From positions 1-64,000 of the forward strand of contig JANXBK010000001.1 in assembly GCA_025057595.1 (NCBI GenBank): a DNA stretch of 64,000 nt. Reading direction: 5' to 3'. Shown here one piece after another: positions 16,381 through 37,812 of the stretch (position 1 is its first letter; every line of letters starts with the position of its first letter). The notes beneath the pieces were generated by a model, which was not told where the DNA came from, did not search any database, and saw only the letters and a list, made by a program, of their open reading frames with translations. Origin of the DNA: Thermodesulfovibrio sp. GTDB lineage: Bacteria; Nitrospirota; Thermodesulfovibrionia; Thermodesulfovibrionales; Thermodesulfovibrionaceae. The position numbers were made by a program, and so were the translations under genes.

Positions 16381-16400
16381 CCATATTCATTCTGCACTTA

Positions 16401-16450
16401 ACTGTTCCATTTGGAACAGTTGATTTTACGACTGTTCCATTTAGCACTGT
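16401..16450. promoter_or_regulatory. Tandem palindromic operator / enhancer sites
   Basis: Two 20-base elements begin with the same ten bases. The first (16401-16420) is the near-perfect palindrome ACTGTTCCATTTGGAACAGT; the second (16431-16450), ACTGTTCCATTTAGCACTGT, is imperfect in the right arm. Their centres are 30 bases apart, about three helical turns. They lie roughly 70-120 bases upstream of the transcription start predicted from the sigma-54 promoter at 16491, the normal location of NtrC-family enhancer sites. The consensus does not match NrdR boxes or parS. Confidence 0.65.
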
Positions 16451-16490
16451 CTATTTTTTTATTTTTCTATAATTTTTAATATCTTTGAGT

Positions 16491-16507
16491 TTGGCAATCT
16501 TTTTGCT
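16491..16507 (+). promoter_or_regulatory. Sigma-54 (-24/-12) promoter of the uspA-phnD-Mo-nuo operon
   Basis: TTGGCAATCTTTTTGCT fits the sigma-54 consensus: the GG at 16493-16494 and the GC at 16505-16506 are exactly 10 bases apart, with flanking TTGGCA and TTGCT. Transcription should begin near 16518, leaving a leader of about 22 bases with a GGGAGG ribosome binding site before uspA. A sigma-54 activator gene lies at the far end of the same region. A separate TATAAT at 16468-16473 exists but has no good -35 box. Confidence 0.7.
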
Positions 16508-16539
16508 CCCTTCTTTTTAGTTTTTGTAGGGAGGCTACA

Positions 16540-16956
16540 ATGGAAAAAATTTTAGTATGTTTTGATGGTTCAGAGTGGTCAAAGAAAGCTTTAAATGAAG
16601 CTATTAAGATAGCTCAGAGGTTTGGTTCTCAAATAACAGTGCTGTCTGTTGTTCCTAAGGTTTGCTTTTTAGAGATGGGTATTGACTGCGCTACAGTGGA
16701 GTCTATATTTAGAGCAGAGACAGAGGGTAATCTTAGAAAAGCAGAAGAAATATTAAGTGAAAAGGGGGTGAGAGGACAAACTTTAATACTTGAGGGAACT
16801 CCTGCAGATGTTATTGTGGAGTACGCAAAGAATAATAATGTAGACCTATTAGTTATGGGTTCTAAGGGTAAGGACGCTACGGAAAGAACACTCTTTGGAA
16901 GTGTTACTCAAAAGGTAACAGCTACTGCAAGCTGTTCAGTTTTAATAGTTAGATAA
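16540..16956 (+). CDS. Universal stress protein (UspA family)
   Basis: A 138-residue single-domain Usp protein. It has the N-terminal KILVCFDGSEWSKKAL segment and the ATP-binding pattern G-x2-G-x9-GS at the C-terminus (MGSKGKDATERTLFGSVTQKV, split here by residue order), so it should bind ATP and dimerise in the cytoplasm. It is the first gene after the sigma-54 promoter, 23 bases before the PhnD-like gene. Such proteins often accompany respiratory operons, with unclear roles. Confidence 0.88.
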   Translation: MEKILVCFDGSEWSKKALNEAIKIAQRFGSQITVLSVVPKVCFLEMGIDCATVESIFRAETEGNLRKAEEILSEKGVRGQTLILEGTPADVIVEYAKNNNVDLLVMGSKGKDATERTLFGSVTQKVTATASCSVLIVR

Positions 16957-16979: not shown

Positions 16980-17819
16980 ATGAAAAAGATTTTAACATCA
17001 ATTTTAGTTTTAGTTTTCATCACAGTGGTACCTATTGTGGCATTCGCTACAGAGCTGAAGTTTGGTTTACTACCAAGACTTACAGAAAAAGAGATGATAG
17101 AAGGATTTACTCCTTTAGCTCAATATCTTGAAAAAGAGTTAGGCGTTAAAGTTAAACTTGTGATACCAAAAGATTTTGACACATGGACAGCTGAAGCAAA
17201 GGCTGGTGCTTACGATATTGCCTATACTAATCCTTATCTTTACGTAGTAGTTAAGAAAACACTAAAGGATGCTCAACCAATAGCTATCGCATCTGAGCCA
17301 GAGATTGGAACAAAACTTTATGGAACAATAATTGTAAAAAAAGACAGTCCAATAAAATCAATAACTGATCTGAAGGGAAAAACTATAGCAGCTACAGATC
17401 CTGGTTCAGCAGGTGCATATCTTGTTCAGATGCTAATGCTTCAGAAAGCTAAGCTTAAAAAAGAGGATGTAAAAATCATTTTTGAAAAGAAGCGTGATCC
17501 AGTAGCTGAGGCAGTACTGTCTGGAAAGGCTGATGCTGGTTTTTTAAGAGATGATGATGTAGAAAAACTAAAGGTTGGCGGAGATAAATTTAGAAGACTT
17601 GGCAAAAGCGATCCAATTCCCAACTGGGTTATCTTTATAGGTAAAAAGATAGATCCAGCTATGGCAACAAAGATTAAGAATGCTATTCTCAAATTGAAAC
17701 CAGGAGATTTACAGTCTGTTAAGGTTCTTGCTCCAGCAAGAATAGATGGTTTTGTTCCAGCAACTGATAAGGATTTCAATGTTGTAATTAATGCTGCAAA
17801 AGCAGCAGGTGCTTACTAA
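16980..17819 (+). CDS. PhnD-like periplasmic oxyanion-binding protein
   Basis: Periplasmic solute-binding protein of the PhnD family (phosphate/phosphite/phosphonate type) with 279 residues. A Sec signal peptide covers about residues 1-24 (ending near AFAT). The body shows FGLLPRLTEKEM, DIAYTNPYLYVVV, SDPGSAGAY-like ligand loop (DPGSAGAYLVQ) and ADAGFLRDDD. No ABC permease or ATPase gene is present, so it is not part of an ordinary ABC importer. Instead it is followed by a TauE-type transporter and a sulfur-type Mo enzyme. It resembles the second PhnD domain of the lipoprotein at 36140. A sulfur oxyanion ligand is an inference. Confidence 0.82.
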   Translation: MKKILTSILVLVFITVVPIVAFATELKFGLLPRLTEKEMIEGFTPLAQYLEKELGVKVKLVIPKDFDTWTAEAKAGAYDIAYTNPYLYVVVKKTLKDAQPIAIASEPEIGTKLYGTIIVKKDSPIKSITDLKGKTIAATDPGSAGAYLVQMLMLQKAKLKKEDVKIIFEKKRDPVAEAVLSGKADAGFLRDDDVEKLKVGGDKFRRLGKSDPIPNWVIFIGKKIDPAMATKIKNAILKLKPGDLQSVKVLAPARIDGFVPATDKDFNVVINAAKAAGAY

Positions 17820-17867: not shown

Positions 17868-19094
17868 ATGAGTGTGAAGATTTTAACTCTTTTAACTATC
17901 ATAACATTAATAACTATTCAGCCCGAGATACTAAAGGCACAGCCTCAAGAGGCTCAGGCTCAACAGCAAAAACCAGAAGTTACTATTCAACTTGACAAAA
18001 AAACATTAAAAAACGGTGGCACAGTAATTGTAAGTGGTAAGGCTCCAGAAGGTAAACCAGTATATATAGAAGTCTGGACAGAGGAAAGGGTAAGAGCTGC
18101 AAGACTTGATGCCGATATAGATAAAGAGACAGGCAAAAGACCATATATCTTCTACATGACTGATGAGATGCCAGCCTTTTATAATCTTCTCGTTCCTAAG
18201 GAGTTTAGTGATGTGCTTGAAGCAGAAAAAAAACTTGGAAGAAAATGGAGTGTATCTACTGTATTAAGAAACACAGGTGCTACAGCTGTATTTGAAGCAC
18301 CAGCACAAGCAAAAATTGACCGATATCAAACCACTCTGTGGGCAAGCATAATAGGATCCCGTGGTGAGCTTCTTCCTCCGATGGATAAAACTGAAAATAA
18401 AAGAAGAGCTATGCAGCTTGTGAAGGCAAAATTTAGAGAGTTGCCAGTAGTATTTAAGGCAACTGTTGATATAGCTCCTGATGGAACATATAAAGCTCCA
18501 ATTGAGCTTCCGTCTAATGCACCTCCTGGCAAATACTATGTGATTGCAAAGGTTGACAAAGATACAAAGAGTGAGACAGCTACATTTGAAAACTCAATAG
18601 GCTTTCCTAGTGTATATCTTAATAATGCAGGAAGAACTATTAATTTGTTTGTTCCCTTTTTACTTACAGTAGCAATCACTACTTTTGGTGTTTTGATGGG
18701 AGCAGGGGGAGGTTTCATTCTCAATCCAGTCCTTGTAATGATGGGATTACCTCATACAGTTGTTGCAGGAACAGTCATGCCTACAGTTCTTTTTTCCCAA
18801 GGCAGTGGTATATATAACTACTCCAAAATAAAATTCATCAGCTTTAAACTTGGGATCACATTAGGACTTGCTATGTTAGCTGGAGGATTTATAGGTCCTA
18901 AGCTTACTGAGCTTATTACTCTTGAGCAATATAAATTCCTGTTTGGTTGGATTTTATTGATTCTTGCTGCTTTGATGCTTTGGCAGACAACTCCAAAATA
19001 TATCGAGAAAAATAAGAAAGAACAAGCTATACTGAGAGAGTATCAAAGAAGAGCTATAGAAGCAGCCAAGAAAAAACAAGAAGGAGGTAAATAA
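17868..19094 (+). CDS. TauE/SafE transporter half with large extracytoplasmic domain
   Basis: A 408-residue protein. Residues 1-24 form a signal or anchor helix, about 30-255 form a predicted beta-sandwich extracytoplasmic domain (GGTVIVSGKAPEGKPVYIEVW, APPGKYYVIAKV), and about 257-385 hold four membrane helices with the TauE repeat motif GAGGGFILNPVLVM. TauE/SafE permeases normally contain two such repeats (about eight helices) in one chain and export sulfite, sulfoacetate or related anions. Here the second repeat is encoded by the next gene, 3 bases away. The C-terminus is charged and cytoplasmic. A good AGGAGG precedes the ATG. Confidence 0.78.
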   Translation: MSVKILTLLTIITLITIQPEILKAQPQEAQAQQQKPEVTIQLDKKTLKNGGTVIVSGKAPEGKPVYIEVWTEERVRAARLDADIDKETGKRPYIFYMTDEMPAFYNLLVPKEFSDVLEAEKKLGRKWSVSTVLRNTGATAVFEAPAQAKIDRYQTTLWASIIGSRGELLPPMDKTENKRRAMQLVKAKFRELPVVFKATVDIAPDGTYKAPIELPSNAPPGKYYVIAKVDKDTKSETATFENSIGFPSVYLNNAGRTINLFVPFLLTVAITTFGVLMGAGGGFILNPVLVMMGLPHTVVAGTVMPTVLFSQGSGIYNYSKIKFISFKLGITLGLAMLAGGFIGPKLTELITLEQYKFLFGWILLILAALMLWQTTPKYIEKNKKEQAILREYQRRAIEAAKKKQEGGK

Positions 19095-19097
19095 ACT

Positions 19098-19487
19098 ATG
19101 AAAGTTGAATTTTGGGGACAAGAGTTTAAAGTAAATCTTTTTATTGGCATACCTGGAGCATTTCTAATAGCAGTTGCATCCTCTATGTTTGGATTTGGTG
19201 GAGGACCCTTTATGGTTCCACTTATGGCTGTTGGACTGAGGCTTCCTATGTACATTATTGTTGGTAGTTCTCTGCTTGCTATATTCTTTAATACCCTTAT
19301 GGGTTCCTTTAGACATTATGGTTTTGGAAACTTTGATCTAATCTTTTTCCTGTTAATGTTTCCTGGTGCGATTCTTGGTGGATATATAGGTCCAAGAATA
19401 GCTAAAAGGCTTAATCCAATAATTGTAAAAAGAGTTGCTTGTGTGGGACTTACAATTTTAGCTTTGCAACTTTTAGGTGTTTTCTAA
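19098..19487 (+). CDS. TauE/SafE transporter, second half
   Basis: A 129-residue membrane protein with about four helices and one TauE repeat (MFGFGGGPFMVPLMAVG, then GGYIGPRIAKRLNP). It is only half the normal permease and must pair with itself or, more likely, with the preceding gene product, whose stop is 3 bases upstream. Both genes have their own ribosome binding site (GGAGG near 19083). The reading frame is intact with no sign of a frameshift that could fuse them. Confidence 0.78.
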   Translation: MKVEFWGQEFKVNLFIGIPGAFLIAVASSMFGFGGGPFMVPLMAVGLRLPMYIIVGSSLLAIFFNTLMGSFRHYGFGNFDLIFFLLMFPGAILGGYIGPRIAKRLNPIIVKRVACVGLTILALQLLGVF

Positions 19488-19506: not shown

Positions 19507-21594
19507 ATGAAAAGCTCGGTATTTAGTTATTGTGGGATGTGCTCTGTTAGATGTCCTATCCGTGTTGAAGTAACAGATGGAAGAGTAACTTGGATAGAGG
19601 GAAATCCTTATGTTCCTGGCATGGAGGGAAGTCTCTGTGCTAGGGGTTCTGCAGGAGTTGCTCTTCTTTATGACTTTGAAAGGCTTCAGTATCCTATGAT
19701 AAGAACTGGTCAGAGAGGTTCAGGACAGTTTAAAAGAGTAAGTTGGAATGAGGCGTTTACCTATGTAGCTGAAAGGATTAAAGAAATACAGTCCCAGTAC
19801 GGCAAAAAAGCTGTAGCACTTTTAGACAGGGGTGCAGGGCTCTTTGGTGAGATACAGAGACTTATCGTAAGAGGTTTAGGTTCTCCTAACTACTTCAGTC
19901 ATGATGATTTTTGTAGAAAAAATGTGGACTTGGCTTATCAAACTCTTCTTGGATATGGAAGACCAGAAGTTAGCTATGACTTTGCTAATACTAAACACAT
20001 GGTCTTTTATGGAAGAAATGCTGTAGAGGCCTTGGGTGTAAGGGAGGTAAACAATATTATAAGGGCTCTTGAAAATGGAGCAGAGTTGACTTATATAGAT
20101 GTAAGAGTATCTAAGACAGCAACAAAAGCTACGAGATATTTTCAAATAAGACCTGGCACTGACTACGCTTTAAATCTTGCTCTTATCCATGTGATTCTTA
20201 GAGAAAATCTTTTTGATAAGGAGTTCGTTGATAGATTTGTCTCAGGAATAACAGAGCTTGAAGATTTTATAAAAAACTATACTCCTCAATGGGCAGAAAG
20301 GGAAACAGGAATTCCTGCTTATGAGATTATTAATCTTGCAAGAGCTTTAGGTGCTGCAAAACCGAGAGTAATAATTTATCCTGGTTGGTTTGCAGCAAGA
20401 TATATGGATGCCTTTTATTTTGCTCGCTCAGTAATCATTCTTAATGCTCTTCTTGGAAGCATTGAACAAAAAGGTGGGCTTATTTTAGCAAAAACACCAA
20501 AAGAGGTGGGAGCAAGAGGAATTAAAAGTCTTCTTGATAGAATACCTGCTTCAGAAGAAAAAAGAGTAGAGGCTGAGGAAGGTCAGGGCTTTCTTTATGA
20601 TGGAGCAGGGCACATATTACACCTTTTTAAAGCAATAAAAACAGCTAAGCCCTATCCTATAAAAGCTCTATTTGTAGTTCGTTATGATCCTTTTGCAGGA
20701 GTAACTCAAAAAGACATACAGGAAATACTTAATGGATTAGATCTCCTTGTAACAGTAGATGTAAACTACTCTGCAACTTCTTGGTATGCAGATGTTATTT
20801 TGCCTGAATCTACTTATCTGGAAAGAGATGATATAATCGGACTTCAAAGAGGTGCCAAGCCTACTCTTGTAATGAGACGTCAGGCAATAAAGCCTCTTTA
20901 CGATACAAAGGCAAAGTGGGAGATTGTAAAGGGCGTCCTAAATGCTTATGGAGTTGGTGATTATATGCCCTATGAGAGTATTGAAGATATATGGAGTTAT
21001 CAACTTGAGGAGACAGGAATAAAGATTGAGGATTTTAATAAAACTGGCCAAGTGGCACTATGTAAAGAGCCTAAGATGTATTCAAGAGAAGAGCTTAAAT
21101 TTAAAACACCTTCAGGCAAAATAGAGATTCTGTCAAGCAAAATGGCAGAAAGAGAGGTTCCATACTTTCTTGATTATCATGATCCAGCAAGACCAAATAT
21201 TGAGGAGGGAGAGTTTAGGCTGATTTTTGGAAGAATGGCAGTTCATACTCATGTTCAAACTCATAATAATAGGTATCTCAATGAAATAGTTCCAGAAAAT
21301 GAGCTATGGATAAATGATAAAGTAGCTACAAAACTTGGAATAAGAAGTGGTGATTGGGTAGAGGTTTCCTCGGAAGACTATGCAGGAAAAATAAAAGCAA
21401 AGGTTACACCTTTTATTCATCCAGAGGTGGTGTTTATGTATAGAGGATTTGAAAATGAGGTGCCATGGAAGAGTCGGTCTTTTGGCAGAGGATTAAATGA
21501 AGGCAGACTTCTTAAAGGTGCCTTTGACAGAATGGCTTATGGAAGTCATACTGGTGCACTTTTTGAGAACTTTGTAAAAGTAAGAAAGATTTAG
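19507..21594 (+). CDS. Molybdopterin oxidoreductase, PsrA/PhsA-like, no export signal
   Basis: Catalytic Mo/W-bisPGD subunit of 695 residues in the DMSO reductase superfamily. The N-terminus has the [4Fe-4S] motif CGMCSVRC...LCARG (C9, C12, C16, C44). C136 in SHDDFCRKN is the likely Mo ligand. The C-terminal Molydop_binding domain includes the FGRMAVHTHVQTHNN segment. It resembles polysulfide and thiosulfate reductase catalytic chains. Those usually carry a Tat signal; none is present here, and no upstream in-frame start supplies one, so it should be cytoplasmic. No PsrC-type membrane subunit follows; a ferredoxin gene and nuo genes do. The substrate is not proven. Confidence 0.83.
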   Translation: MKSSVFSYCGMCSVRCPIRVEVTDGRVTWIEGNPYVPGMEGSLCARGSAGVALLYDFERLQYPMIRTGQRGSGQFKRVSWNEAFTYVAERIKEIQSQYGKKAVALLDRGAGLFGEIQRLIVRGLGSPNYFSHDDFCRKNVDLAYQTLLGYGRPEVSYDFANTKHMVFYGRNAVEALGVREVNNIIRALENGAELTYIDVRVSKTATKATRYFQIRPGTDYALNLALIHVILRENLFDKEFVDRFVSGITELEDFIKNYTPQWAERETGIPAYEIINLARALGAAKPRVIIYPGWFAARYMDAFYFARSVIILNALLGSIEQKGGLILAKTPKEVGARGIKSLLDRIPASEEKRVEAEEGQGFLYDGAGHILHLFKAIKTAKPYPIKALFVVRYDPFAGVTQKDIQEILNGLDLLVTVDVNYSATSWYADVILPESTYLERDDIIGLQRGAKPTLVMRRQAIKPLYDTKAKWEIVKGVLNAYGVGDYMPYESIEDIWSYQLEETGIKIEDFNKTGQVALCKEPKMYSREELKFKTPSGKIEILSSKMAEREVPYFLDYHDPARPNIEEGEFRLIFGRMAVHTHVQTHNNRYLNEIVPENELWINDKVATKLGIRSGDWVEVSSEDYAGKIKAKVTPFIHPEVVFMYRGFENEVPWKSRSFGRGLNEGRLLKGAFDRMAYGSHTGALFENFVKVRKI

Positions 21595-21607: not shown

Positions 21608-22114
21608 GTGAGCATATACTACATATATCAAGATCATGACCGCTGTATAGGATGTTACGCTTGTGAGGTTCACTGTAAAACTAAAAATGAGCTTCCTGTA
21701 GGACCAAGGCTTTGCAGAATCATTGAAACAGAGATAAAACTTGTTGGCGGGCTTCCAAGACAAAGATTTGTCTTTATGCCATGTTTTCATTGTGAAGAGC
21801 CATGGTGTGTAAAGGCTTGTCCTACAGGTGCAATGCAACGACGTTCTAAGGATGGAATTGTATTTGTTGAGCAGGCTCTCTGTGTAGGTTGTAAATCTTG
21901 TATTACAGCATGTCCGTGGGGTGTGCCACAGTGGAATCCTGAGACAGGCAAAGTTGTAAAGTGTGATTACTGTAAGGATAGAGTAGATGAGGGATTAAAG
22001 CCTGCTTGTGTAACAAAATGCACCACAAAAGCATTAAGATTTATATCTGCAGATGAGGCTTCAAGGCTTAAAAGAGAAAGATTTGTAAAAGATACATATG
22101 CTTCACTTTATTGA
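21608..22114 (+). CDS. Four-cluster ferredoxin subunit (PsrB/HycB-like)
   Basis: A 168-residue electron-transfer protein with 16 cysteines in four groups: [37 protein letters not shown] and CDYCKDR...CVTKC. This is the pattern of PsrB, DmsB and HycB, which carry four [4Fe-4S] clusters. It starts with GTG at 21608 after an AGGAGG. Its end overlaps the nuoB start by 17 bases. That coupling and the lack of a membrane anchor subunit suggest it passes electrons between the Mo subunit and the NuoB/NuoI clusters, as HycB does in formate hydrogenlyase. Confidence 0.88.
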
Positions 22115-22574
22115 TAAAAACATCATTGTTACCACTCTAGATAAAATAGTAAATTGGGGTAGGTCAAACTCTCTTTGGCCCCTTACCTTTGGATTAGCCT
22201 GTTGTGCTATTGAGATGATGGCAGCAGGTGCTTCACACTTAGATTTTGACAGATTTGGTGTTCTTTTTAGAGCTTCTCCACGCCAAGCAGATCTAATAAT
22301 AGTTGCAGGGACTGTCACATATAAAATGGCTCCAATACTAAAAAGAATATATGAGCAAATGGGTGAACCAAAGTATGTAATAGCTATGGGAAGTTGTGCT
22401 TGTACAGGAGGAGTTTTTAATACCTACAGTACTGTTCAAGGAGTAGATCAGTTTTTGCCAGTAGATGTGTATGTGCCAGGATGTCCACCGAGACCAGAAG
22501 CATTAATGTATGGAGTTTTGAAGTTAAAGGAAAAAATAATAAAAGAACAGAAAAGATGGGGAAGCTGGAGATAG
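22098..22574 (+). CDS. nuoB: NADH-quinone oxidoreductase subunit B
   Basis: Holds cluster N2, the last iron-sulfur cluster before quinone, in the peripheral arm. It has 158 residues with the cluster ligands in [18 protein letters not shown] and [11 protein letters not shown]. The start overlaps the ferredoxin gene by 17 bases and the end overlaps nuoD by 19 bases. It is the first nuo gene, preceded by no nuoA or nuoC, which is unusual. Confidence 0.95.
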
Positions 22575-23761
22575 AAAAACTTTCCGATTCGAACTTTATT
22601 CTTCAGATGGGACCTCATCATCCAGCAACTCATGGAGTATTAAGACTATTTTGTGAGTTTGAGGGTGAAAGAGTAATTAAAATAACTCCTGATATAGGAT
22701 ATCTTCACAGAGGCATAGAAAAGCTCTCAGAGACTAAAACCTATCCTGTAGCAATGACTCTTACTGATAGGCTCGATTACATTTCAAGCATGATTAACAA
22801 TATAGGATATTGTCTCGCAGTTGAAAGACTTTTAAATATTGAGCCACCCCCCAGAGCAAAGTTTATAAGAACTGTGGTTTCTGAGCTTACAAGACTAAGC
22901 AGTCATCTACTCTGGCTTGCTACTCACGCTTTGGATATAGGAGCAATGACAGTGTTTCTTTATGCCTTCAGAGAAAGAGAGCAAATACTTCAGTTTTTTG
23001 AAAAAATTTGTGGGGCAAGACTTACAGTAAGTTATCCAAGAATTGGTGGAGTAAGATTTGATATAAACAGTTTTGTTCTTGATGAGATTTATAAATTTAT
23101 GGATACAATGCTTAACCGCATTGATGAGTATGAAACTCTTCTTACAGAAAATCGGATATGGATTGCAAGAACAAAAAATATAGGAGTTATCTCAGCAGCA
23201 GAGGCAGTTTCTTTAGGACTTACAGGTCCTGCTTTAAGAGCCTCTGGAGTTTATTACGATGTCAGAAAACATATGCCCTATGATGCCTACAATGAGGTTG
23301 AGTTTGAAGTTCCTTTAGGTGAAAATGGAGATACCTATGACAGATACTTATGTAGAATTCGTGAGATGAGACAGTCGGTTTTTATAGTAAAACAGTGCAT
23401 CGAAAAAATGCCTAAAGGAGAGATTATCACAGATAAGGCTATTGATATTGATATTTCACCTGAAAGAAAGCGTTTATTTGTAGCAGAAGATTCTCTATGG
23501 AGTGGATTTATAGCTTTTTTAGATGAAAAACGAGAGCTTATACCAAAAGGAGAAATATATTCAGCTGTTGAAGCTCCGAAGGGAGAGCTTGGCTTTTACA
23601 TTGTAAGTGACGGAGGTGGAAAGCCATACAGAATGCGTATAAGAGCACCATCTTTTATTCATATCTCAGCTATTCCAAAACTCTGTGAAGGACATTTTCT
23701 TGCGGATGTTATTGCAATAATTGGAACTCTTGATATAGTAATGGGCGAGGCAGACAGATGA
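22556..23761 (+). CDS. nuoD: NADH-quinone oxidoreductase subunit D
   Basis: The 49-kDa-type subunit that shapes the quinone site with NuoB. The frame is open from 22481, but ATG 22556 is preferred because the protein then begins just before the family's normal N-terminus ([14 protein letters not shown]) at 401 residues. Other signatures are [11 protein letters not shown], the RLDYISSM segment and C-terminal [17 protein letters not shown] and [12 protein letters not shown]. It is not fused to NuoC, which is encoded later. The stop overlaps nuoI by 4 bases. Confidence 0.94.
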
Positions 23762-24315
23762 AAACTCTCTTAAGAAAAATTCTCTTTGTTGACTTATTTA
23801 AAGGCATGGCTCTTACTTTTAAAACTATATTTAAAAAACCTGTTACAGTTCGTTATCCAAAGGAAAAAAGAGCCATTGAACCTGGATTCAGAGGCAGACA
23901 CGCCCTTGTTCGAGAATCTGAAACAGATAGGGAGCGGTGTATTGCTTGCACAAAGTGTGCGGTTGTTTGCCCCTCTCAATGTATTCATATAGAGTATGTA
24001 ATAAACTCTGAAACAGCTACAAGAAGTCTAACAAAATATGAGATAGATGCATTAAGATGTATTTTCTGCGGATACTGCGAGGAAGTCTGTCCTGTAAATG
24101 CTATTGTCTTAACAGAGTTTTATGAATATGCCTCCTACAGTAGAGAAGAAAACTATTTTGACAAAGAGGTATTGCTTAAGAATTGGGATGAATTTATAAG
24201 ACAGTATGAGGGCAGAGACTATATAAATAAATTCTGGTATTTACCAGGAATTAATAGAGAGAGACTACCAGTAGGTAAAAGACAACCTAAAGCTATTTTT
24301 AAAACAAAGGAGTAA
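23758..24315 (+). CDS. nuoI: NADH-quinone oxidoreductase subunit I
   Basis: Ferredoxin-type subunit with clusters N6a and N6b. It has 185 residues with two CxxCxxCxxxC motifs ([12 protein letters not shown] and [12 protein letters not shown]) and the RGRHALVR segment. The N-terminal helix carries [19 protein letters not shown], typical of NuoI. ATG overlaps the nuoD stop. NuoI normally receives electrons from NuoG; as nuoG is absent, the ferredoxin encoded at 21608 is a candidate donor or acceptor. Confidence 0.94.
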
Positions 24316-24318
24316 AAG

Positions 24319-24699
24319 ATGGAGCCAGGAGCCTATATTCCTTATAAATACCTTCCAGTTGTTATTGCTATAATTTTGGCTACTGTTTTCGGTTTTGGAG
24401 GATTATTGATAAATAAACTTATGGCACCAAAAAAATTTAATCCCATTAAACTTATAGCTTATGAGTCTGGAAATCCACCAAGCGGACAGCCAAAGGATAG
24501 ATTTGTCATAGTCTTTTTTCTTATTGCCATACTTTTTGTAGTTTTTGATATAGAAGTTATCTTTCTTTATCCTTGGGCAGTAGCTTTTGGCGAGTTGTCC
24601 TCTGAAGGATTCTGGATTATGATTGTCTTTATTGCTTTGATTTTTCTTGGCTATCTTTATGAGATCTTTATAGGAGCTTTCAGATGGCAGAAAAGATAA
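24319..24699 (+). CDS. nuoA: NADH-quinone oxidoreductase subunit A
   Basis: Small membrane subunit near the quinone channel, 126 residues and three helices. It carries the conserved [14 protein letters not shown] loop and [12 protein letters not shown] in the second helix. It lies after nuoI instead of heading the operon. It overlaps nuoC by 16 bases. Confidence 0.93.
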
Positions 24700-25208
24700 A
24701 AAAGGCAGCAACTGAGGCAAGTTTAAAGATTGCAGAGCAGTTAAGGAGAATATTTTATGACTATATTGTTGATATAAAAGAATTCAGAGGGCAGGTTTTA
24801 GTAGTTGTAAATAAAGAAAAAATAAAAGAAATCATAAAGTATCTTAAAGAAGAGCAGGGTTTCAATCATCTACAAGACCTTTGTGGAGTTGATTACTATC
24901 CTCAAAAACCACGATTTGAGGTTGTTTATAGTCTTTTTAGTATTTGGAGAAGGCTGTATATTAGATTAAAGGTAAAAGTTGATGAAGAAGATCCAGAGAT
25001 AGAAAGCATTTCAGATCTTTGGCAGTCCGCAAATTGGCTTGAAAGAGAATGCTTTGATATGTTTGGATTAAGATTCAAAGGACATCCGGATTTAAAAAGG
25101 ATTCTTATGCCAGAGGATTGGGAAGGATATCCTCTAAGAAAAGATTATCCTATTGAGGGAAAAGAAGTTTGGAAAGGATTTAGAGAAATAGTTGAAAGCG
25201 GAGTTTAA
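24684..25208 (+). CDS. nuoC: NADH-quinone oxidoreductase subunit C
   Basis: The 30-kDa-type peripheral subunit of 174 residues. Motifs are [49 protein letters not shown] (in part) and the terminal [12 protein letters not shown]. It is a stand-alone gene located after nuoA, while most operons have nuoC between nuoB and nuoD. Confidence 0.93.
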
Positions 25209-25211
25209 TTA

Positions 25212-26207
25212 ATGATTGAGTTACTTGGCCTAGTAATAAAAACATTTGTTGTTTTTGCTATAGTACTAACTCATGTTGCCTACACAACCTACGCAGAAAG
25301 AAAGATTATAGGTAGAGCTCAAGCAAGAATGGGTCCTATGGAGGTAGGGCCTCATGGACTGCTTCAGCCCATTGCAGATTTTATAAAAATATTCTTCAAA
25401 GAAGATATTATTCCTATGAATGCTGAAAAACTACTTTTTAAGATAGCTCCATTAGTAGTTTTAGTTTTTACTACGATTAATCTCACTGTTATTCCTTTTA
25501 CATCAGATTTTATTATTGCCGACTTAAACATAGGAGTTTTATTTATCTTAGCTTCCGCATCCGTTGCTGTTTATGGAGTAATACTTGCTGGATGGTCATC
25601 AAACAGTAAATATTCATTTCTTGGAGGAATTCGTTCTGCCAGTCAGGTCTTAAGCTATGAGATAGCTCTTGGATTAAGTCTTGCTGGAGTGGTATTGATG
25701 GCTGGCTCTCTTAATTTAAGAGAGATAGTTTATGCTCAACATAAAACTGCCTTTGGTATATATGCAATACCTCAGATTATAGGTTTTGTTGTGTTTATAA
25801 TAGCAGCATTTGCAGAAACCAACAGAGCACCTTTTGATCTCCCAGAAGCAGAAACAGAGCTCGTAGCAGGTTATTTAACCGAGTATAGTGCTTTCAGATA
25901 TGCGCTGTTTTTCCTTGCTGAGTATATTGCTATGTATGTTATGGCATCTATCTGTACCCTCTGTTTTTTAGGTGGATGGACAATCCCAAAGTTTATTACT
26001 GATTTTCTGCCGTTTTTAGAGAAAGTTCCTGGCATAGTATGGTTTGCCATAAAAGTCTATGCCTTCATATTTCTTTACATTTGGATAAGAGCAACATTTC
26101 CCAGATATAGATTTGACCAATTACTTAGTATTGGATGGAAAGTGCTAATTCCAGCAGGAATAATTAATATTTTTATTACCGCCTTCATAAAGAGGTTTGC
26201 ACTATGA
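25212..26207 (+). CDS. nuoH: NADH-quinone oxidoreductase subunit H
   Basis: Membrane subunit that joins the peripheral arm to the pump and forms part of the quinone channel. It has 331 residues and about eight helices. Signatures are AYTTYAERKIIGRAQARMGP, QPIADFIKIFFKED, AAFAETNRAPFDLPEAETEL and the terminal RATFPRYRFDQLLSIGWK. The end overlaps nuoJ by 4 bases. Confidence 0.95.
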   Translation: MIELLGLVIKTFVVFAIVLTHVAYTTYAERKIIGRAQARMGPMEVGPHGLLQPIADFIKIFFKEDIIPMNAEKLLFKIAPLVVLVFTTINLTVIPFTSDFIIADLNIGVLFILASASVAVYGVILAGWSSNSKYSFLGGIRSASQVLSYEIALGLSLAGVVLMAGSLNLREIVYAQHKTAFGIYAIPQIIGFVVFIIAAFAETNRAPFDLPEAETELVAGYLTEYSAFRYALFFLAEYIAMYVMASICTLCFLGGWTIPKFITDFLPFLEKVPGIVWFAIKVYAFIFLYIWIRATFPRYRFDQLLSIGWKVLIPAGIINIFITAFIKRFAL

Positions 26208-26716
26208 TTTATTTGATATTTGGTTATTTTTGTATAGCCACAGTAGGAATTTCAATTGTGGCACTTACAAGGAAAAATCCAGTTCATGCAGTATTAGGGT
26301 TATTATTACTTTTTCTTCATATAGCAGTGATATATCTTTTTCTGAATGCCGAGTTTTTAGCGATGGTTCAAATAATAGTTTATGCGGGTGCCATATTAGT
26401 AATGTTTCTTTTTACCTTATTTTTACTCGGAGCAAAAGAGCTCTCTTCAACTAAAAGATATACCTCAATCTTTGAAGGTAGAGTTCTCATAGGAGTTGCT
26501 ACAATGGCAGTTATAGTTGGAGCCTTTTCTTTAATAGAGACTAAATATAAGGGAAAATATACTATAAGTTATATTCAGGAAATAGGCAATACCAAGGCAG
26601 TAGGTGTCTTACTTTTCAATGAGTATCCTATAGGTGTGCTTCTTATTGGTATTATTCTTCTTATTCCAATGATAGCAGTTGCGGTATTAGCATGGAGAAA
26701 AAATGATACCTCTTGA
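26204..26716 (+). CDS. nuoJ: NADH-quinone oxidoreductase subunit J
   Basis: Membrane subunit with five helices and 170 residues. The pi-bulge helix region is seen as AEFLAMVQIIVYAGAILVMF. ATG overlaps the nuoH stop, and the end overlaps nuoK by 14 bases. Confidence 0.92.
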   Translation: MIYLIFGYFCIATVGISIVALTRKNPVHAVLGLLLLFLHIAVIYLFLNAEFLAMVQIIVYAGAILVMFLFTLFLLGAKELSSTKRYTSIFEGRVLIGVATMAVIVGAFSLIETKYKGKYTISYIQEIGNTKAVGVLLFNEYPIGVLLIGIILLIPMIAVAVLAWRKNDTS

Positions 26717-27017
26717 GGCATATCTCGTATTAGCTGGATTAATTTTTAGCATAGGATTGATAAATCTTTTAATAAGTAGGAATATGATTATTTTATTTAT
26801 CTCTGTTGAAGTAATGCTTGCAGGAGTTAATCTTATGTTAGTCGCTATGGCACACTATATGAATGATATTAGGGGGCATGTTTTAGCTCTTTTTAGTATA
26901 GCGGTTACAGCAGGCTCTGTAGCAGTTGGGCTTTCTCTTCTAGTAGCCTACTTTAATCTTAAAAAGAGTATAGACAGCGAAGAATTAAGAGAACTAAGAG
27001 AAAGATTAGATGGTTGA
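26703..27017 (+). CDS. nuoK: NADH-quinone oxidoreductase subunit K
   Basis: Three-helix MrpC-like subunit of 104 residues with conserved membrane glutamates in SVEVMLAGVNLML and the later AVTAGSVAVGLSLLV helix. It overlaps nuoJ by 14 bases and the next antiporter gene by 8 bases. Confidence 0.93.
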   Translation: MIPLEAYLVLAGLIFSIGLINLLISRNMIILFISVEVMLAGVNLMLVAMAHYMNDIRGHVLALFSIAVTAGSVAVGLSLLVAYFNLKKSIDSEELRELRERLDG

Positions 27018-28470
27018 ACTACTACCACTTTTGTCTATTCTGGTTTCTGTAGTTGCAGCTATCTTAATTGTCTTTATCGGAGATAGAAATCCCAATCTTA
27101 GAGAGTTTGTATCAGTAGTTGCGGGTTTACTGAAGTTTTCTTTCGTTTTAATGCTTATTCCTCCTTTTTTAAAGAACAAAGAGATATATCTGAAAATTAC
27201 TACAGTTTTACCAGGCATAGAGCTATCTTTTAGAGTTGATGGATTAGGACTACTCTTTGCTTTAGGTGCTTCTTTTCTTTGGATACTGACTACTTTCTAC
27301 TCAATTGGATATATGAGAGGATTAAATGAGCATTCTCAAACTAGATATTTTGCTTGTTTTGCTCTTTCTTTAAGCTCTGCAATGGGAATAGCTTTTGCAG
27401 GAAATCTATTCACTATGTTTATATTTTATGAAGCATTGACTATTGTTACTTATCCTTTGGTTGCTCATCGGGAAGACAGAGAGGGACTTGAGGGTGGAAG
27501 ACAGTATGTTGTATATCTCTTGGGAACAGCAAAAATTTTTCTTCTTGCTGCGATAGTTACTACTTATATTCTTACCGGGACTCTTGATTTTAAAGACGGT
27601 GGAATATTTACTTCCCAGATAGTTGACAACAACAAACTATTTCTTCAGATTCTGCTATTTCTTTTTATATACGGTTTTAATAAGTCAGCGGTGATGCCGC
27701 TTCATAGCTGGCTTCCTGCAGCAATGGTAGCCCCAACACCTGTAAGTGCACTGTTGCATGCAGTGGCTGTGGTAAAAGCAGGAGTTTTCAGTGTTTCAAG
27801 AGTTTTTCTTAATATTTATGGTGAAAACACTATAAAACTTCTGGGAGTACAGGATTTAATCTTTTTTATTACAGGTTTTACTATCATAGCTGCCTCTATT
27901 GTGGCGCTTACAAGAGATGATTTCAAGGCAAGACTCGCCTTTTCTACAGTAGCGAATCTTTCCTATATACTCATCGGAGTTGCTATGTTTTCTCCTTTAG
28001 GAGTGCTCGGGGGATTAATTCATATAAGTATGCACGCTTTTTCAAAAATAACCATGTTTTTTGTGGCTGGTTCAGTTTATGTTTCAACACATATAAAGAA
28101 AATAAGTGAACTTGATGGAGTTGGAAGAGTAATGCCGATTACTATGTTTTCCTTCTTTCTTGCTACCTTAAGCATGATAGGTATTCCTTTTTTTGCTGGA
28201 TTCATCAGTAAATACTATCTTGCTTTGGGAGCTTTGCAGATAGAGAGGTTTGAACTATTAGGAGTTTTTGTATTAAGCTCCTTTCTGAATGCGGTCTACT
28301 TTCTTCCGATTTCTTATAGAGCATTTTTTAAAAAGCCAACTTCATCACAGAGATGGTATGGTGTCAAGGAGAACTACTTTTGTGCTATTCCTCTTTTACT
28401 AACTGCTCTTTTAACGGTTTTATTAGGTATCTATCCAAATTTCCTTATAGAAATTATAAAGAGAGGATAA
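27010..28470 (+). CDS. MrpD/NuoL-like proton antiporter subunit, first copy
   Basis: A 486-residue, roughly 14-helix protein of the proton-conducting antiporter family (NuoL/M/N, MrpA/D). Key positions are the helix-5 glutamate in FIFYEALTIVTYP, the helix-7 lysine in NKSAVMPLHSWLPAAMVAPTPVSALLHA, and the helix-8 lysine in VKAGVFSVSR. It sits where nuoL normally lies but is shorter and lacks the long C-terminal lateral helix of NuoL, so it is closer to MrpD in form. It overlaps nuoK at its start and the small gene at 28470 by 1 base (TAATG). Confidence 0.85.
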   Translation: MVELLPLLSILVSVVAAILIVFIGDRNPNLREFVSVVAGLLKFSFVLMLIPPFLKNKEIYLKITTVLPGIELSFRVDGLGLLFALGASFLWILTTFYSIGYMRGLNEHSQTRYFACFALSLSSAMGIAFAGNLFTMFIFYEALTIVTYPLVAHREDREGLEGGRQYVVYLLGTAKIFLLAAIVTTYILTGTLDFKDGGIFTSQIVDNNKLFLQILLFLFIYGFNKSAVMPLHSWLPAAMVAPTPVSALLHAVAVVKAGVFSVSRVFLNIYGENTIKLLGVQDLIFFITGFTIIAASIVALTRDDFKARLAFSTVANLSYILIGVAMFSPLGVLGGLIHISMHAFSKITMFFVAGSVYVSTHIKKISELDGVGRVMPITMFSFFLATLSMIGIPFFAGFISKYYLALGALQIERFELLGVFVLSSFLNAVYFLPISYRAFFKKPTSSQRWYGVKENYFCAIPLLLTALLTVLLGIYPNFLIEIIKRG

Positions 28471-28682
28471 TGTATAGGAGAATTCTCTATATAGTCTGTG
28501 TAACTATAGTACTTCTTGAAATAGTGCTTCTTAAGCTTATGCATCTCGGGCATGGATATTTTAAAATTGAGGAAATTCCTGCCTTTGGAGCTATATTAGG
28601 CTTTTTAGGAAGTTTATTTGTTGTGATTGTTGCTAAATCTTTAAGCAAAGTTATCACAAAGAGGGAAGACTACTATGACTGA
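28470..28682 (+). CDS. Small two-helix membrane protein of the antiporter module
   Basis: A 70-residue protein with two predicted helices (about 4-24 and 37-58) and the C-terminus KREDYYD. The frame is open further upstream (from 28353), but ATG 28470 is chosen because it overlaps the stop of the preceding antiporter gene and gives a clean hydrophobic N-terminus. It overlaps the next antiporter gene by 8 bases. Similar small proteins ending in EDYYD are remembered beside MrpD-like genes in other anaerobes; no function is known. It may fill the role of a missing small Mrp-type subunit. Confidence 0.75.
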   Translation: MYRRILYIVCVTIVLLEIVLLKLMHLGHGYFKIEEIPAFGAILGFLGSLFVVIVAKSLSKVITKREDYYD

Positions 28683-30444
28683 TTTTATACATCCGGGATT
28701 AGTACTCATTTTTGCTTCACTTATTTTACCAGTTATACCAAAAAATTTAAGAGGTCCATACAGTGTGTTGATAGCTACTTTGGGGTTTTCCCTTACACTT
28801 ATGGCAGAACAAGGATTTTATGGCTCTGTAAATCTATTTGGTGTGAATATTTCTCCTATTGTAAGAGTAGACAGTTTAAGTCTTCTTTTTGCCTCTATTT
28901 TTAGTTTTATTGGATTAATTGGGATAATCTACTGCTGTCACATAGATGATTGGATTCAGCAGATGGCTGGACTGCTTTATACAGGAGCTTCATTAGGTGT
29001 AAGTTTTGCTGCTGATCTTCTTAGTTTTTATCTTTTCTGGGAGATGCTTTCCTTCTGCGCGGTTTTACTTATATGGTCTCAAAGAACAAAGGAAGCAATA
29101 GATGCTGGATACAGATATATACTTGTTCATATAGTAGGAGGTCTTTCACTATTTGTAGGCATAGTAATCTTTATATATAAAACAGGAAGTATAGAGTTTT
29201 CCTCTTTTATGAGTTATTCAAATGAGGCTTTCTGGTGGTTTATTCTTGTAGGTTTTGCTTTATGTGCAGCAGTTCCGCCTTTTCATGCATGGCTTCCTGA
29301 TTCTTATCCCTCTGCTACAATTTATGGAAGTGTCTTTCTTAATCCTTTCACTACAAAAGCAGCAGTTTATGCTCTTATTAGAGGATTTCCAGGTGCGGAG
29401 ATTCTTATTTATTTTGGCTCAATAATGGCTGTTTATGGAGTTATTTATGCACTTCTTGAGAATAACTTAAGAAGACTTCTTTCTTATCACATAGTAAGTC
29501 AGGTTGGATATATGGTTGCAGGAGTAGGACTTGGAGTAATTAGCTTAGGACTGAATGGTTCTGCATCCCATGCATTTAATCATATACTTTATAAATGTTT
29601 ACTTTTTATGTCAGCAGGAGCAGTAATATATGCTACTGGAAAGGAAAAAATGACTGAACTTGGTAGTTTTGCCAAGTATGCTCCAGTCACTGCTATAAGC
29701 TTTTTCATAGGCGCTTTTTCTATCGCAGGTTTTCCTCTTACTAATGGATTTATTGGAAAAGCACCTGTTGTCTCAGCAGCAGGTGAAATAAAGAATTTTT
29801 TTGCTTATTTAATGCTTAATGTAGCTACTTGTGGGACGATTATAAGCATTGTTTGTAAGATGGGATATTACACATTTTTTTCAGACAAGAAAACAGATTA
29901 TTCAGTGAGACAAACTCCCCTAAATATGAAAATTGCTATGGTTATAACATCTGGCTTATGTATTTTAATAGGTATCTTTCCGAAAACTTTTTATCAGTAT
30001 TTACCTTATCCGATGGATTATGAGCCCTACACAGCCCAGCACATTCTTGATACTCTTGCTATTTTCGGTTTTACTGGAGTTGTTTTTTTGATTTTTCTTA
30101 AAAAACTAAAGCCTAAGCCCTATATAAATCTTGATATGGACTGGTTTTACAGGAAAGGAGCGATCTTAACGGTGAATTATTTTAACAAAACGGTTCCTTC
30201 AGTAGAATACGGTTTAGTAAACAGGATTTGGAGATGGATAATAGAGTTAGTGGTATTACCCCTAAGTCATAAAGTTTCCAACTACGAAAGAGTAAAAATG
30301 AGCAGAATTCCTAATTTTTTCTCCAACTTAGCGAAAAATTTTAGTGACAGTTTAGCTATTTTCCATACAGGAAGAATACAGGATTATGCTATGTATATGT
30401 TAAGTTTTTTAGGATTGGCACTTTTAATTTATCTACTCTTTTAG
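28675..30444 (+). CDS. MrpD/NuoL-like proton antiporter subunit, second copy with long C-terminus
   Basis: A 589-residue antiporter-family protein. The core has LLSFYLFWEMLSFCAVLLIW (helix-5 glutamate), VPPFHAWLPDSYPSATIYGSVFL and a lysine in NPFTTKAAVY. After the core, from about residue 470, it carries a long segment with an extra membrane helix and a C-terminus FHTGRIQDYAMYML, which resembles the end of NuoL and of hydrogenase-4 or Mrp subunits. It could act as the distal pump with a lateral helix. A ribosome binding site lies within the preceding small gene. Confidence 0.85.
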   Translation: MTDFIHPGLVLIFASLILPVIPKNLRGPYSVLIATLGFSLTLMAEQGFYGSVNLFGVNISPIVRVDSLSLLFASIFSFIGLIGIIYCCHIDDWIQQMAGLLYTGASLGVSFAADLLSFYLFWEMLSFCAVLLIWSQRTKEAIDAGYRYILVHIVGGLSLFVGIVIFIYKTGSIEFSSFMSYSNEAFWWFILVGFALCAAVPPFHAWLPDSYPSATIYGSVFLNPFTTKAAVYALIRGFPGAEILIYFGSIMAVYGVIYALLENNLRRLLSYHIVSQVGYMVAGVGLGVISLGLNGSASHAFNHILYKCLLFMSAGAVIYATGKEKMTELGSFAKYAPVTAISFFIGAFSIAGFPLTNGFIGKAPVVSAAGEIKNFFAYLMLNVATCGTIISIVCKMGYYTFFSDKKTDYSVRQTPLNMKIAMVITSGLCILIGIFPKTFYQYLPYPMDYEPYTAQHILDTLAIFGFTGVVFLIFLKKLKPKPYINLDMDWFYRKGAILTVNYFNKTVPSVEYGLVNRIWRWIIELVVLPLSHKVSNYERVKMSRIPNFFSNLAKNFSDSLAIFHTGRIQDYAMYMLSFLGLALLIYLLF

Positions 30445-30454
30445 GTGTTTTTTT

Positions 30455-31894
30455 ATGTTGGGAGTTAAGTTAATTTTATTGCTTCCACTTATTGGAGCAA
30501 TTTTAGTTTGGATGATTAGAAAAAGGTTTTTAGTTAATTTAGTTGCAATAAGCCTTTCTCTTTTTTCCTTTTTAATCGCTTTATTTTACTATCTAAACTT
30601 AGACAGGACAAAGAGGGAATTTCAATTCATTTTTTCCTATAGATGGATTTCTGCATGGAATCTTGATTTTTCTGTAGGATTTGATCATATAAATGCACCT
30701 TTTGTTCTTCTCACCACACTAATTACAACTGTGGCTGTAGTTTTATCTGCCAAGACAATTAAAGAAAAATTATCATCCTACATGGCTTTGCTACTCTTAC
30801 TTTCTTTTTTTGTGAATACTTTTTTTATGTCCACTAACTTTTTACAATTCTTTTTCTTCTATGAAGCAATGCTTATACCTTCTGTTTTGTTAATTCAAAG
30901 ATGGGGTGGAAGGAATGCATATGAAGCTTCACTTAAATTTTTACTTTATACTTTCGGATTCAGTCTCTTTCTCTTTATTGCTATAATTGCTGTATATTTT
31001 TATGGAGGTGGGTTTAGATTTGACAGTTTAAGCCAATTGAGTTTAACTGCTCAATCTAAAATGTTACTTTTTATAAGTTTTTTATTAGCCTTCTTTGTTA
31101 AAATTCCTATTGTTCCTCTACATGGATGGTTAAGAGAGGCCTACTATGAAGCTCCTATGCCTATGACAATATTTATGTCTTCTGTGCTTAGTAAAATGGG
31201 AGTATATGGTACTCTTAGGATAGCTCCCTATTTCAGTGATACAGTCTCTTTAGTTTCTAATTGGATTATTGCTTTATGTGTTTTTTCTTTTATTTACTCT
31301 GCATTTGTAGCACTTACTGCTAAGAATACGAAGATTATGTTTTCCTATATGAGCCTTAGCCATATAGGAATGATTACTGCTGGAGTATTTACTGGAAACA
31401 TCTTGGGTTATCAAGGTACATTACTGCAAAGTATAAACCATGGATTACTCTCTGCAGGATTTTTTTACATAGCAGAGCTATTACAGAGACAAACACAGAG
31501 TTTTGATTCGGAAAAATTTGGTGGTCTTTCAAAGAGAGTTCCTGCACTCACATTCTTTACTTTTGCTCTAATAATGGCAATGGCTGGATTCCCAGGGCTT
31601 AACTACTTTAATGGAGAACTTTTACTTTTAAGCGGCATATTTAAAGAAAATATCTATCTTGGTTTTTTCAGTGTGTTTGGTGTTGCTTTAGGGGTTTTAT
31701 ATTTGGCATGGTTTTTCTACAGAGTTTTTCTAAGAAAGCCTGCTGCAGAGATGTCTTACTATGTTAAAGATGTTAGTTCTTGGGAATTTCTTATTTTACT
31801 TTTGTTTTTCCTTATATCCATATATCTTGGTCTAAATCCGGATTTTGTTCTATTAGGACTAAAAAATATCATATCTTTTGGAGGCAAAGTATGA
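30455..31894 (+). CDS. nuoM: NADH-quinone oxidoreductase subunit M
   Basis: Antiporter-like subunit of 479 residues and about 14 helices. It carries FFFYEAMLIPSVLLIQRWGG with the pump glutamate, KIPIVPLHGWLREAYYEAPMPMTIFMSSVLSKMG with lysines (in part), and SYMSLSHIGM, which mark NuoM. The start is 10 bases after the previous gene, and the stop overlaps the nuoN start (ATGA). Confidence 0.93.
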   Translation: MLGVKLILLLPLIGAILVWMIRKRFLVNLVAISLSLFSFLIALFYYLNLDRTKREFQFIFSYRWISAWNLDFSVGFDHINAPFVLLTTLITTVAVVLSAKTIKEKLSSYMALLLLLSFFVNTFFMSTNFLQFFFFYEAMLIPSVLLIQRWGGRNAYEASLKFLLYTFGFSLFLFIAIIAVYFYGGGFRFDSLSQLSLTAQSKMLLFISFLLAFFVKIPIVPLHGWLREAYYEAPMPMTIFMSSVLSKMGVYGTLRIAPYFSDTVSLVSNWIIALCVFSFIYSAFVALTAKNTKIMFSYMSLSHIGMITAGVFTGNILGYQGTLLQSINHGLLSAGFFYIAELLQRQTQSFDSEKFGGLSKRVPALTFFTFALIMAMAGFPGLNYFNGELLLLSGIFKENIYLGFFSVFGVALGVLYLAWFFYRVFLRKPAAEMSYYVKDVSSWEFLILLLFFLISIYLGLNPDFVLLGLKNIISFGGKV

Positions 31895-33264
31895 CTCAAT
31901 ACTTGCTACTACTACCTGAGATAACTCTATTTGTTTTGGGAGTTATAACTTTCTGTTATGGTTTCATAAGGAGAGAAAGTAAACATTTATGGATATTTGG
32001 TTTGTTAACTTTTGCTGTCTCCCTTGCAGTTGCTGTTGTTTGTTTTAATCACAGGGAATTTTCAGCAGAGGCTGTGAAAATAAGTGAGTATAAACAGTTG
32101 ATGAGAGTATTTATCTTTACTATAGGTTTACTGGTGCTTGTCTTGTCTTACGAAGATCTAAAGAAAAATGTAAACAAAGCAGCAGAGTATTTTTTTCTTT
32201 TAATAATATCTTTATTTGGTATGAATATTATGATTGTTGCCAATGATTTACTTATTCTTTATCTTTCTTTGGAGACTTTTTCCTTAGCTTTATACACTCT
32301 TGCAGGATTTTATCAAAAAGAAAGAGTAAGTGTAGAGGCAGGTTTAAAGTATTTTATTCTTGGCACATTATCCTCTGTGCTTCTTCTTGCCTGCATAGCC
32401 TTTCTTTATGGTATAACAGGCAGTACCTCCTATGAGATTCTTAGATCAATGAAAGTAGAAGATTTTTCTTTCAGTTTAGGAGTTCTTTTCCTTGTCGCAT
32501 CCTTTGCTTTTAAGCTTTCTCTTGTTCCTTTTCATGCATGGGCTCCAGATGTATATCAAGGCGCTCCAACTTCTGTAACAGCTTTTTTTTCTACAGCGCC
32601 CAAAGTAGCAGTTTTTTCGGCGTTGATTAATATTTTTCTGTCCTTTTCTCTACAAACAAAGCCTGAAGGTTTGATAATAATTCTTTCAAGCCTTTCAATG
32701 TTTTTAGGAAATCTTTTAGCTCTTAGGCAAACAAATTTAAAGAGAATGCTTGCATATTCATCTATAGCTCATTCAGGATATATGTTTATGGCATTTTTAC
32801 TCAGCGATAATTTAATTGTTTTGTCTCTTATTCCCTATTTGATAGTTTATGTATTTATGAATATAGGAATTTTTGCTGTAATAATATCAATAAAGGAAGA
32901 AACTCTCAATAAATATTATGGTCTTGGCAAATACAATCCTATAGTTGCTCTCTGTCTTATAATAATACTTTTCTCTTTTACAGGAATACCTCCTACAGCA
33001 GGATTTGTGGTAAAACTTAATCTTTTTAAAAATGTTTTTTCTGCCGGCTACAGTGAGCTAGTTTTTTTTGCACTTTTAATGAGTATTTTGTCTGCCTTTT
33101 ACTACCTAAGAGTGGTTTTTTATCTTTATAAGGATGCTCCTATAAATTTTAAGTATAACAAAAATAATATTACTCTTGCCTTAGCTTTACTCTGTTGTAT
33201 ATTTCTATTATTAGTCGGAGTTTTGCCAGATTTGATTCTATTTTTCTTCTTCAAACTGTGGTAG
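31891..33264 (+). CDS. nuoN: NADH-quinone oxidoreductase subunit N
   Basis: Antiporter-like subunit of 457 residues. The frame extends upstream to 31780, but ATG 31891 overlaps the nuoM stop, follows GGAGGC and gives the normal NuoN N-terminus (LLLPEITLFVLG). Signatures are LILYLSLETFSLALY, FKLSLVPFHAWAPDVYQGAPTSVTAFFSTAPK (in part) and AYSSIAHSGY. It ends the plus-strand operon and overlaps the convergent regulator gene by 27 bases, with no obvious terminator between. Confidence 0.93.
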   Translation: MTQYLLLLPEITLFVLGVITFCYGFIRRESKHLWIFGLLTFAVSLAVAVVCFNHREFSAEAVKISEYKQLMRVFIFTIGLLVLVLSYEDLKKNVNKAAEYFFLLIISLFGMNIMIVANDLLILYLSLETFSLALYTLAGFYQKERVSVEAGLKYFILGTLSSVLLLACIAFLYGITGSTSYEILRSMKVEDFSFSLGVLFLVASFAFKLSLVPFHAWAPDVYQGAPTSVTAFFSTAPKVAVFSALINIFLSFSLQTKPEGLIIILSSLSMFLGNLLALRQTNLKRMLAYSSIAHSGYMFMAFLLSDNLIVLSLIPYLIVYVFMNIGIFAVIISIKEETLNKYYGLGKYNPIVALCLIIILFSFTGIPPTAGFVVKLNLFKNVFSAGYSELVFFALLMSILSAFYYLRVVFYLYKDAPINFKYNKNNITLALALLCCIFLLLVGVLPDLILFFFFKLW

Positions 33265-37783: not shown

Positions 37784-37812
37784 AGCGAAAACTAAGTTTA
37801 TAAATTTTTTTA

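Follow-up and report, generated by a model that had tools for sequence, protein, structure and literature searches.

The window, a stretch of 64,000 nucleotides of a Thermodesulfovibrio contig, carries a plus-strand operon that begins with a universal stress protein gene (usp) and ends with a complex-I-type module (Table 1). A cassette of three minus-strand genes, encoding an NtrC-type response regulator, a sensor histidine kinase and a lipoprotein with two PhnD-type domains, adjoins the far end of the operon. On the other side, an intergenic region of 196 bp (16344-16539) lies between usp and a divergent ribonucleotide reductase gene (14136-16343, minus strand). The putative promoter and enhancer sites of the operon locate in this region.

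Table 1. Features of the promoter region, the operon and the sensor cassette in the window
Feature	Position	Strand	Basis or remark
UAS1, upstream enhancer site (putative)	16400..16421	.	AACTGTTCCATTTGGAACAGTT; perfect inverted repeat, arms of 10, 2-bp centre; centre about -107
UAS2, second enhancer site (putative)	16430..16451	.	GACTGTTCCATTTAGCACTGTC; degenerate copy, centre about -77
A+T-rich block between enhancer and promoter	16473..16486	+	relatives read TTTCAATAAcTTA, close to the IHF consensus WATCAANNNNTTR; window copy degenerate
Sigma-54 -24/-12 element	16491..16507	+	TTGGCAATCTTTTTGCT
Ribosome-binding site AGGGAGG of the first gene	16528..16534	+	sequence
Universal stress protein (usp, PF00582), first gene	16540..16956	+	domain match
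PhnD-type oxyanion-binding protein (PF12974)	16980..17819	+	domain match
TauE/SafE-type anion transporter, N-terminal half with extra N-terminal domain	17868..19094	+	
TauE/SafE-type transporter, C-terminal half, own gene	19098..19487	+	
PhsA/PsrA-like molybdopterin oxidoreductase	19507..21594	+	closest solved protein 2vpw, Thermus polysulfide/thiosulfate reductase
DmsB/PhsB-like 4Fe-4S protein (ferredoxin)	21608..22114	+	
Complex-I-type module: NuoB, D, I, A, C, H, J, K-like (26703-27017), four antiporter-type subunits	22098..33264	+	
NtrC-type response regulator, proposed activator	33238..34575	-	receiver PF00072, AAA+ PF00158 with GAFTGA, Fis HTH PF02954, all above cut-off
Sensor histidine kinase	34576..36177	-	weak sCache and HAMP matches, Cys-rich linker, HisKA, HATPase_c
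Lipoprotein with two PhnD-type binding domains, proposed sensor subunit	36140..37873	-	lipobox LPLSC; relatives PtxB, ArrX

The operon genes overlap or lie close together, with no more than weak terminator-like matches on the plus strand of the operon, so the 17-kb operon is likely transcribed as one unit. Between the binding-protein and TauE genes we notice a strong inverted repeat (17828-17852, 11-bp stem), with no T run after it on the plus strand, which is possibly an mRNA-stabilising hairpin. The TauE domain is split in its middle. We ruled out a frameshift and regard the split as natural, since two adjacent genes are kept in 17/17 relatives examined from five families; of 80 further loci, mostly from Nitrospirota and Desulfobulbales, nearly all have the two parts as direct neighbours.

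Aligning the PhsA/PsrA-like protein with 2vpw places its FCRK on LCTA, with a cysteine at the Mo-ligand position of Thermus PsrA; the aligned cysteine of 2vpw is presumably the Mo ligand. No Tat signal is seen in this protein. Its score against the NCBIfam PhsA model is 520.7 bits (cut-off 694), and the regulator reaches 471.6 bits against AtoC (cut-off 714) and 434 against ntrC (cut-off 558.6), which gives it no named orthologue there. Because all scores fall below the curated cut-offs, the identities AtoC, ZraR, NtrC and PhsA were dropped and NCBIfam names are not used as identities here.

Predicted promoter elements of the intergenic region

The GG (16493-94) and GC (16505-06) of the -24/-12 element have exactly 10 bases between them, the spacing given by the original prediction, which had proposed a sigma-54 promoter with two phased palindromes. 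Within the window, TTGGCAatcttttTGCT (16491-16507) is the sole 9/9 match to TGGCA-N6-TTGC on either strand; beyond these nine core positions, the element agrees with 11/13 of the longer consensus TTGGCACG-N4-TTGCW. Taking C16506 as -12, transcription is predicted to start at about 16518. For such a start, the centres of UAS1 and UAS2 fall within the range of about 70-120 bases upstream that had been proposed.

UAS1 and UAS2 share ACTGTTCCATTT, and their centres are 30 bp apart. The common sequence and the spacing had been described in this way, and both hold. The palindromic nature holds fully for UAS1 only: UAS2 is degenerate, keeping 8/10 consensus positions as a palindrome, so that in strict terms the two palindromes are a perfect one and a weak one. 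We estimated chance occurrence from 2000 dinucleotide shuffles of the 196-bp region. A palindrome arm of at least 9 appeared in 3/2000 shuffles, a 9/9 sigma-54 site in 1/2000 and an equally good site pair at 28-34 bp in 0/2000. Across 1.86 Mb of other fetched loci (both strands counted), the full arrangement occurs only at five promoters of the same operon.

The A+T-rich block between UAS2 and the promoter shows 75% column identity among relatives, against 55-60% in the spacers. IHF consensus positions are matched at 8 or 9 of 9, at the same offset, in 12/15 promoters, the window not among them, and at least 8 are also matched in about 14% of single shuffles. The window's block is the most degenerate of the promoter set, and for this reason the IHF-like part of the arrangement is suggestive only. 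The window's genome encodes HU/IHF-family proteins, an assignment at the family level that does not separate IHF from HU.

Conservation of the paired sites among relatives

We compared 18 copies of the operon, the window's and those of 17 relatives (13 from the same genus and four from other families of the order). In all 18, covering five families, TGTyCC-N4-GGnACA occurs twice at a distance of 30-32 bp, followed by a -24/-12 element. Two more operons, outside the motif definition (L142, L149), carry the same pair and promoter layout. TGT.CC and GG..CA of UAS1 are invariant in 20/20 operon promoters compared, and UAS2 is usually weaker than UAS1. The upstream site lies 94-139 bp from the GC overall and 94-97 bp in 15/18 copies; in G037, G055 and G056 this distance is 130-138 bp, yet the pair is still 31-32 bp apart. 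An RpoN match is found once per genome in 7/7 genomes tested (the window's genome and six relatives). Phased paired sites with a -24/-12 element make up the NtrC-family architecture that had been claimed for this promoter. Aligning relatives had also been put forward as a check that might refute it; every operon-bearing relative inspected from Thermodesulfovibrio and four other families of the order has both the palindromes and the -24/-12 element, with one decayed -12 (G009, GC to GT).

Two relatives show changes between promoter and usp or in usp itself. In G009 (locus L073), usp has an internal deletion in addition to the GT at -12, which looks like a joint decay of the first gene and its promoter. 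In G012, promoter and usp stand about 400 bp apart, with other sequence between them, and repeated GGAATGACA-like motifs extend there over several hundred bp (L072, 2770-3150).

Column identity is 0.82 for UAS1, 0.83 for the -24/-12 element, 0.66 for UAS2 and 0.55-0.60 for the spacers. These values bear on a different reading of the region, in which the -24/-12 match has arisen by chance, a sigma-70 promoter drives the operon and the palindromes are the target of a repressor or of some other dimeric regulator. Repressors, too, typically recognise palindromes of this size. However, the -24/-12 element is as well conserved as UAS1 at nearly fixed spacing, no sigma-70-like match was found on the plus strand of the intergenic region (16344-16539), and sites 77-107 bp before the start suit enhancers rather than operators. 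We consider a sigma-70 promoter with operators very improbable here.

The same promoter stands behind at least eight unrelated upstream genes in different genomes, and it therefore belongs to the operon downstream. These neighbours, partly named from sequence only, include ribonucleotide reductase, a membrane protein, an aconitase-like gene, a transposase-like ORF, the regulator itself, a chemotaxis receptor, a peptidase-like gene and others. In six species, the aconitase-like gene ends 5-11 bp upstream, and in 5/6 of them (L068, L070, L072, L073, L075), where this distance is 8-11 bp, the UAS1 arms extend to 11-13 bp and could form a hairpin. UAS1 might thus be mainly a terminator of the upstream gene, its pairing with UAS2 incidental. 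In the window, however, the neighbour is divergent and leaves nothing to terminate, and the UAS1 core and its pairing at 30-32 bp persist whichever of the different neighbours precedes them. A mere terminator is hardly to be expected on these grounds; a double role as enhancer and terminator is possible in the aconitase species.

The TauE-PhsA operons of other lineages (e.g. Desulfobulbales) have no such paired sites. This indicates that the motif goes with the regulator and not with the function of the operon.

The proposed regulator, its sensor cassette and its putative targets

The NtrC-family gene that had been noted at 33238, at the far end of the operon, encodes receiver, GAFTGA-bearing AAA+ and Fis-type domains. 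The original prediction had overlooked the rest of the sensory cassette with its tandem binding-protein sensor, as well as the degeneracy of UAS2, the IHF-like block and the sulfur nature of the operon. The complete cassette adjoins the operon in G025, G037, G056 and L149, and in L142 the regulator does. These five regulators are 55-59% identical to the window's and keep the helix S/T-R-K/R-QLRTKMK, and the paired sites are present. In L157 and L160, an operon of the same type goes with a 41% identical regulator, the helix RKVLWKK and no paired sites. The recognition helix SRKQLRTKMKHHG is kept in the inspected orthologues with the motif, and in G002, a complete congener genome with 12 sigma-54 activators, it is absent from the other 11. 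Across these sequences, the recognition helix covaries with TGTyCC-N4-GGnACA.

Meanwhile, the promoter and enhancer sites could be genuine but served by another NtrC-type activator, the gene at 33238 being a mere neighbour. A congener with about a dozen sigma-54 activators offers enough candidates, and the cassette and the operon stand on different contigs in several genomes. On the other hand, the helix that covaries with the motif is found only in the 33238-type regulator, and in several families the cassette and the paired sites occur together at two different target clusters. We judge another activator unlikely and retain the adjoining regulator as the proposed one.

The kinase carries a Cys-rich linker between HAMP and HisKA (residues about 225-280; C-x4-C-P-A/S-Y-G, RCW, further Cys), which is possibly a metal or redox site. 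The linker is kept in eleven compared kinases of the clade and is absent in those of G021, G030 and G046. We also notice a regulator branch (L121, L122, L125, L126) with GAFTCA for GAFTGA in the sigma-54 contact loop; its recognition helix is kept, and its cassettes have no tandem PhnD protein.

A single-palindrome search allowing two mismatches was set aside, as it mostly returned TGTTCCACGTGGAACA, which is unlike the operon motif and, we assume, resembles the ParB parS site. Two GTTCCACGTGGAAC sites in the window (8625 and 9696) likewise look to us like ParB parS sites. The whole-promoter profile used instead was built from 15 promoters, from sequence only, and searched over 61 genomes, with E below 1e-14 defining a strong match. 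Matches below about 25 bits outside operon promoters mostly covered the model partially and were counted only where paired sites were found.

The search with this profile, which takes up the proposed genome-wide check of the motif, returned one strong match in each of 14 Thermodesulfovibrio genomes with an operon promoter found (the window's included); the G025 operon promoter was the only other strong match in the 61 genomes. The switch is local in Thermodesulfovibrio, since the sole strong match per genome is the operon promoter. Some of the searched assemblies are fragmentary: the two genomes in which no operon was found, G010 and G015, have a completeness of only 63-66%, and the window's own (G000; 1.17 Mb, 72 contigs) is 72% complete and may hold a second target.

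Relatives do have a second putative target. In G020 and G032, the cassette, whose regulator keeps this helix, stands beside genes for a YeeE-type sulfur transporter (PF04143), TusA, a DsrE-like protein and small proteins, and paired sites with a -24/-12 element are present at this cluster. Paired sites stand at a similar sulfur cluster in G025 and G027 too, G025 thus having both targets. Judged from domains only, the cluster resembles the YTD cluster, a marker of sulfur disproportionation (PMC8780430). G020 has a second promoter with paired sites and -24/-12 element before a PF03601 gene. In G037, an extra sigma-54 promoter with one good site lies just behind the regulator gene, before genes for a receiver-type protein and a chemotaxis receptor.

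Proposed mechanism, signal and relation to known systems

On the basis of these comparisons, we conclude that 16400-16507 is very probably the single sigma-54-dependent promoter of the usp-phnD-tauE-phsAB-nuo operon, activated by the 33238 regulator under its sensor cassette. Phosphorylated regulator dimers would bind the strong UAS1 palindrome, and the weak UAS2, three helical turns off on the same helix face, would be bound cooperatively. The bound regulator would form an AAA+ oligomer, and the DNA would loop over the bendable A+T block, aided in most relatives by IHF or HU. The closed sigma-54 polymerase complex at 16491-16507 could then be remodelled, and transcription would start near 16518. 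We propose that the kinase phosphorylates the regulator upon binding of an oxyanion by the tandem PhnD-type protein, which would be anchored in the membrane; thiosulfate or some other sulfur oxyanion is the likeliest ligand.

The claim that a specific signal switches the operon is plausible and becomes more concrete with the PhnD-type sensor protein. A sulfur oxyanion, for instance thiosulfate, is the probable signal, because the gene set of the operon combines a PhsA/PsrA-like molybdoenzyme with a ferredoxin, TauE and complex-I subunits. For the tandem lipoprotein itself, the analogy with TtrS and ThsS (see below) points to a sulfur-oxyanion ligand, at a chance that we put at about even, since by sequence PtxB (phosphite)/PhnD (phosphonate) and ArrX are its equally close relatives. 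PhsA of cable bacteria groups with Thermodesulfovibrio homologues, and that enzyme is considered thiosulfate-specific (PMC13047784). In Desulfolithobacter dissulfuricans, PhsA-1, Nuo subunits (neighbouring locus tags) and YTD proteins, whose orthology to the operon here is putative, are either of higher abundance during thiosulfate disproportionation or detected under that condition alone (PMC9751629).

The arrangement is that of NtrC-type sigma-54 promoters (glnA-type; D. vulgaris regulome, PMC4641369), with paired palindromes in helical phase, a -24/-12 element, a GAFTGA response regulator and a small regulon. Most such regulators of Desulfovibrio vulgaris control one to four operons (PMC4641369). 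The motif here, in contrast, is TGTyCC-N4-GGnACA, and no matching string occurs in the text of PMC4641369, which presents its motif logos as figures. Like TtrSR and ThsSR, the cassette has a PhnD-like sensing domain and regulator genes beside a thiosulfate/tetrathionate reductase-type operon (PMC5408782). TtrS is thought to bind tetrathionate through its PhnD-like domain; ThsS, found by its PhnD-like similarity beside a phs operon, senses thiosulfate (PMC5408782). Unlike in these systems, the PhnD part here is a separate tandem lipoprotein not fused to the kinase (TtrS-model score 55.4 bits, cut-off 750). Further differences are a kinase with an sCache-like domain of its own and a Cys-rich linker, and a regulator of the sigma-54 activator class. 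To our knowledge, TtrR and ThsR have no AAA+ domain.

ArrX-type proteins, which have a role in sensing, are PhnD-family binding proteins related by sequence to the second domain of the lipoprotein. Here, however, two domains are joined in one lipoprotein, and the operon and the regulator class are different. With the YTD cluster of sulfur disproportionators (PMC9751629, PMC8780430), the likeness is that relatives have a YeeE/TusA/DsrE cluster flanked by this cassette and by paired sites, whereas the TauE-PhsAB-complex I operon is the only strong target found in Thermodesulfovibrio. The promoter architecture is a textbook one, but the regulator, the motif and the target assignment seem undescribed, as no earlier description of them was found in the literature searched, with subscription journals outside its scope.

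Knowledge of the sulfur disproportionation pathway is only partial, as PMC8780430 states for the first step, and the literature examined describes no regulator of sulfur disproportionation. We tentatively suggest, as a possibility short of an even chance, that the tandem-PhnD lipoprotein, the Cys-linker kinase and the GAFTGA regulator form a dedicated three-component sensor of sulfur intermediates. Through TGTyCC-N4-GGnACA pairs, it might control the PhsAB-complex I operon and the YTD cluster and act as the thiosulfate/sulfur disproportionation switch of Thermodesulfovibrionales, the Cys-rich linker perhaps adding a redox input. The promoter could serve as a thermophile-derived reporter of sulfur oxyanions. 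Our findings assign a motif to a regulator in a phylum whose regulation is sparsely annotated. The sigma-54 switch, conserved, local and linked to a single sensor cassette, offers a direct handle on this system, and its ligand would reveal the purpose of the operon and of the YTD cluster.
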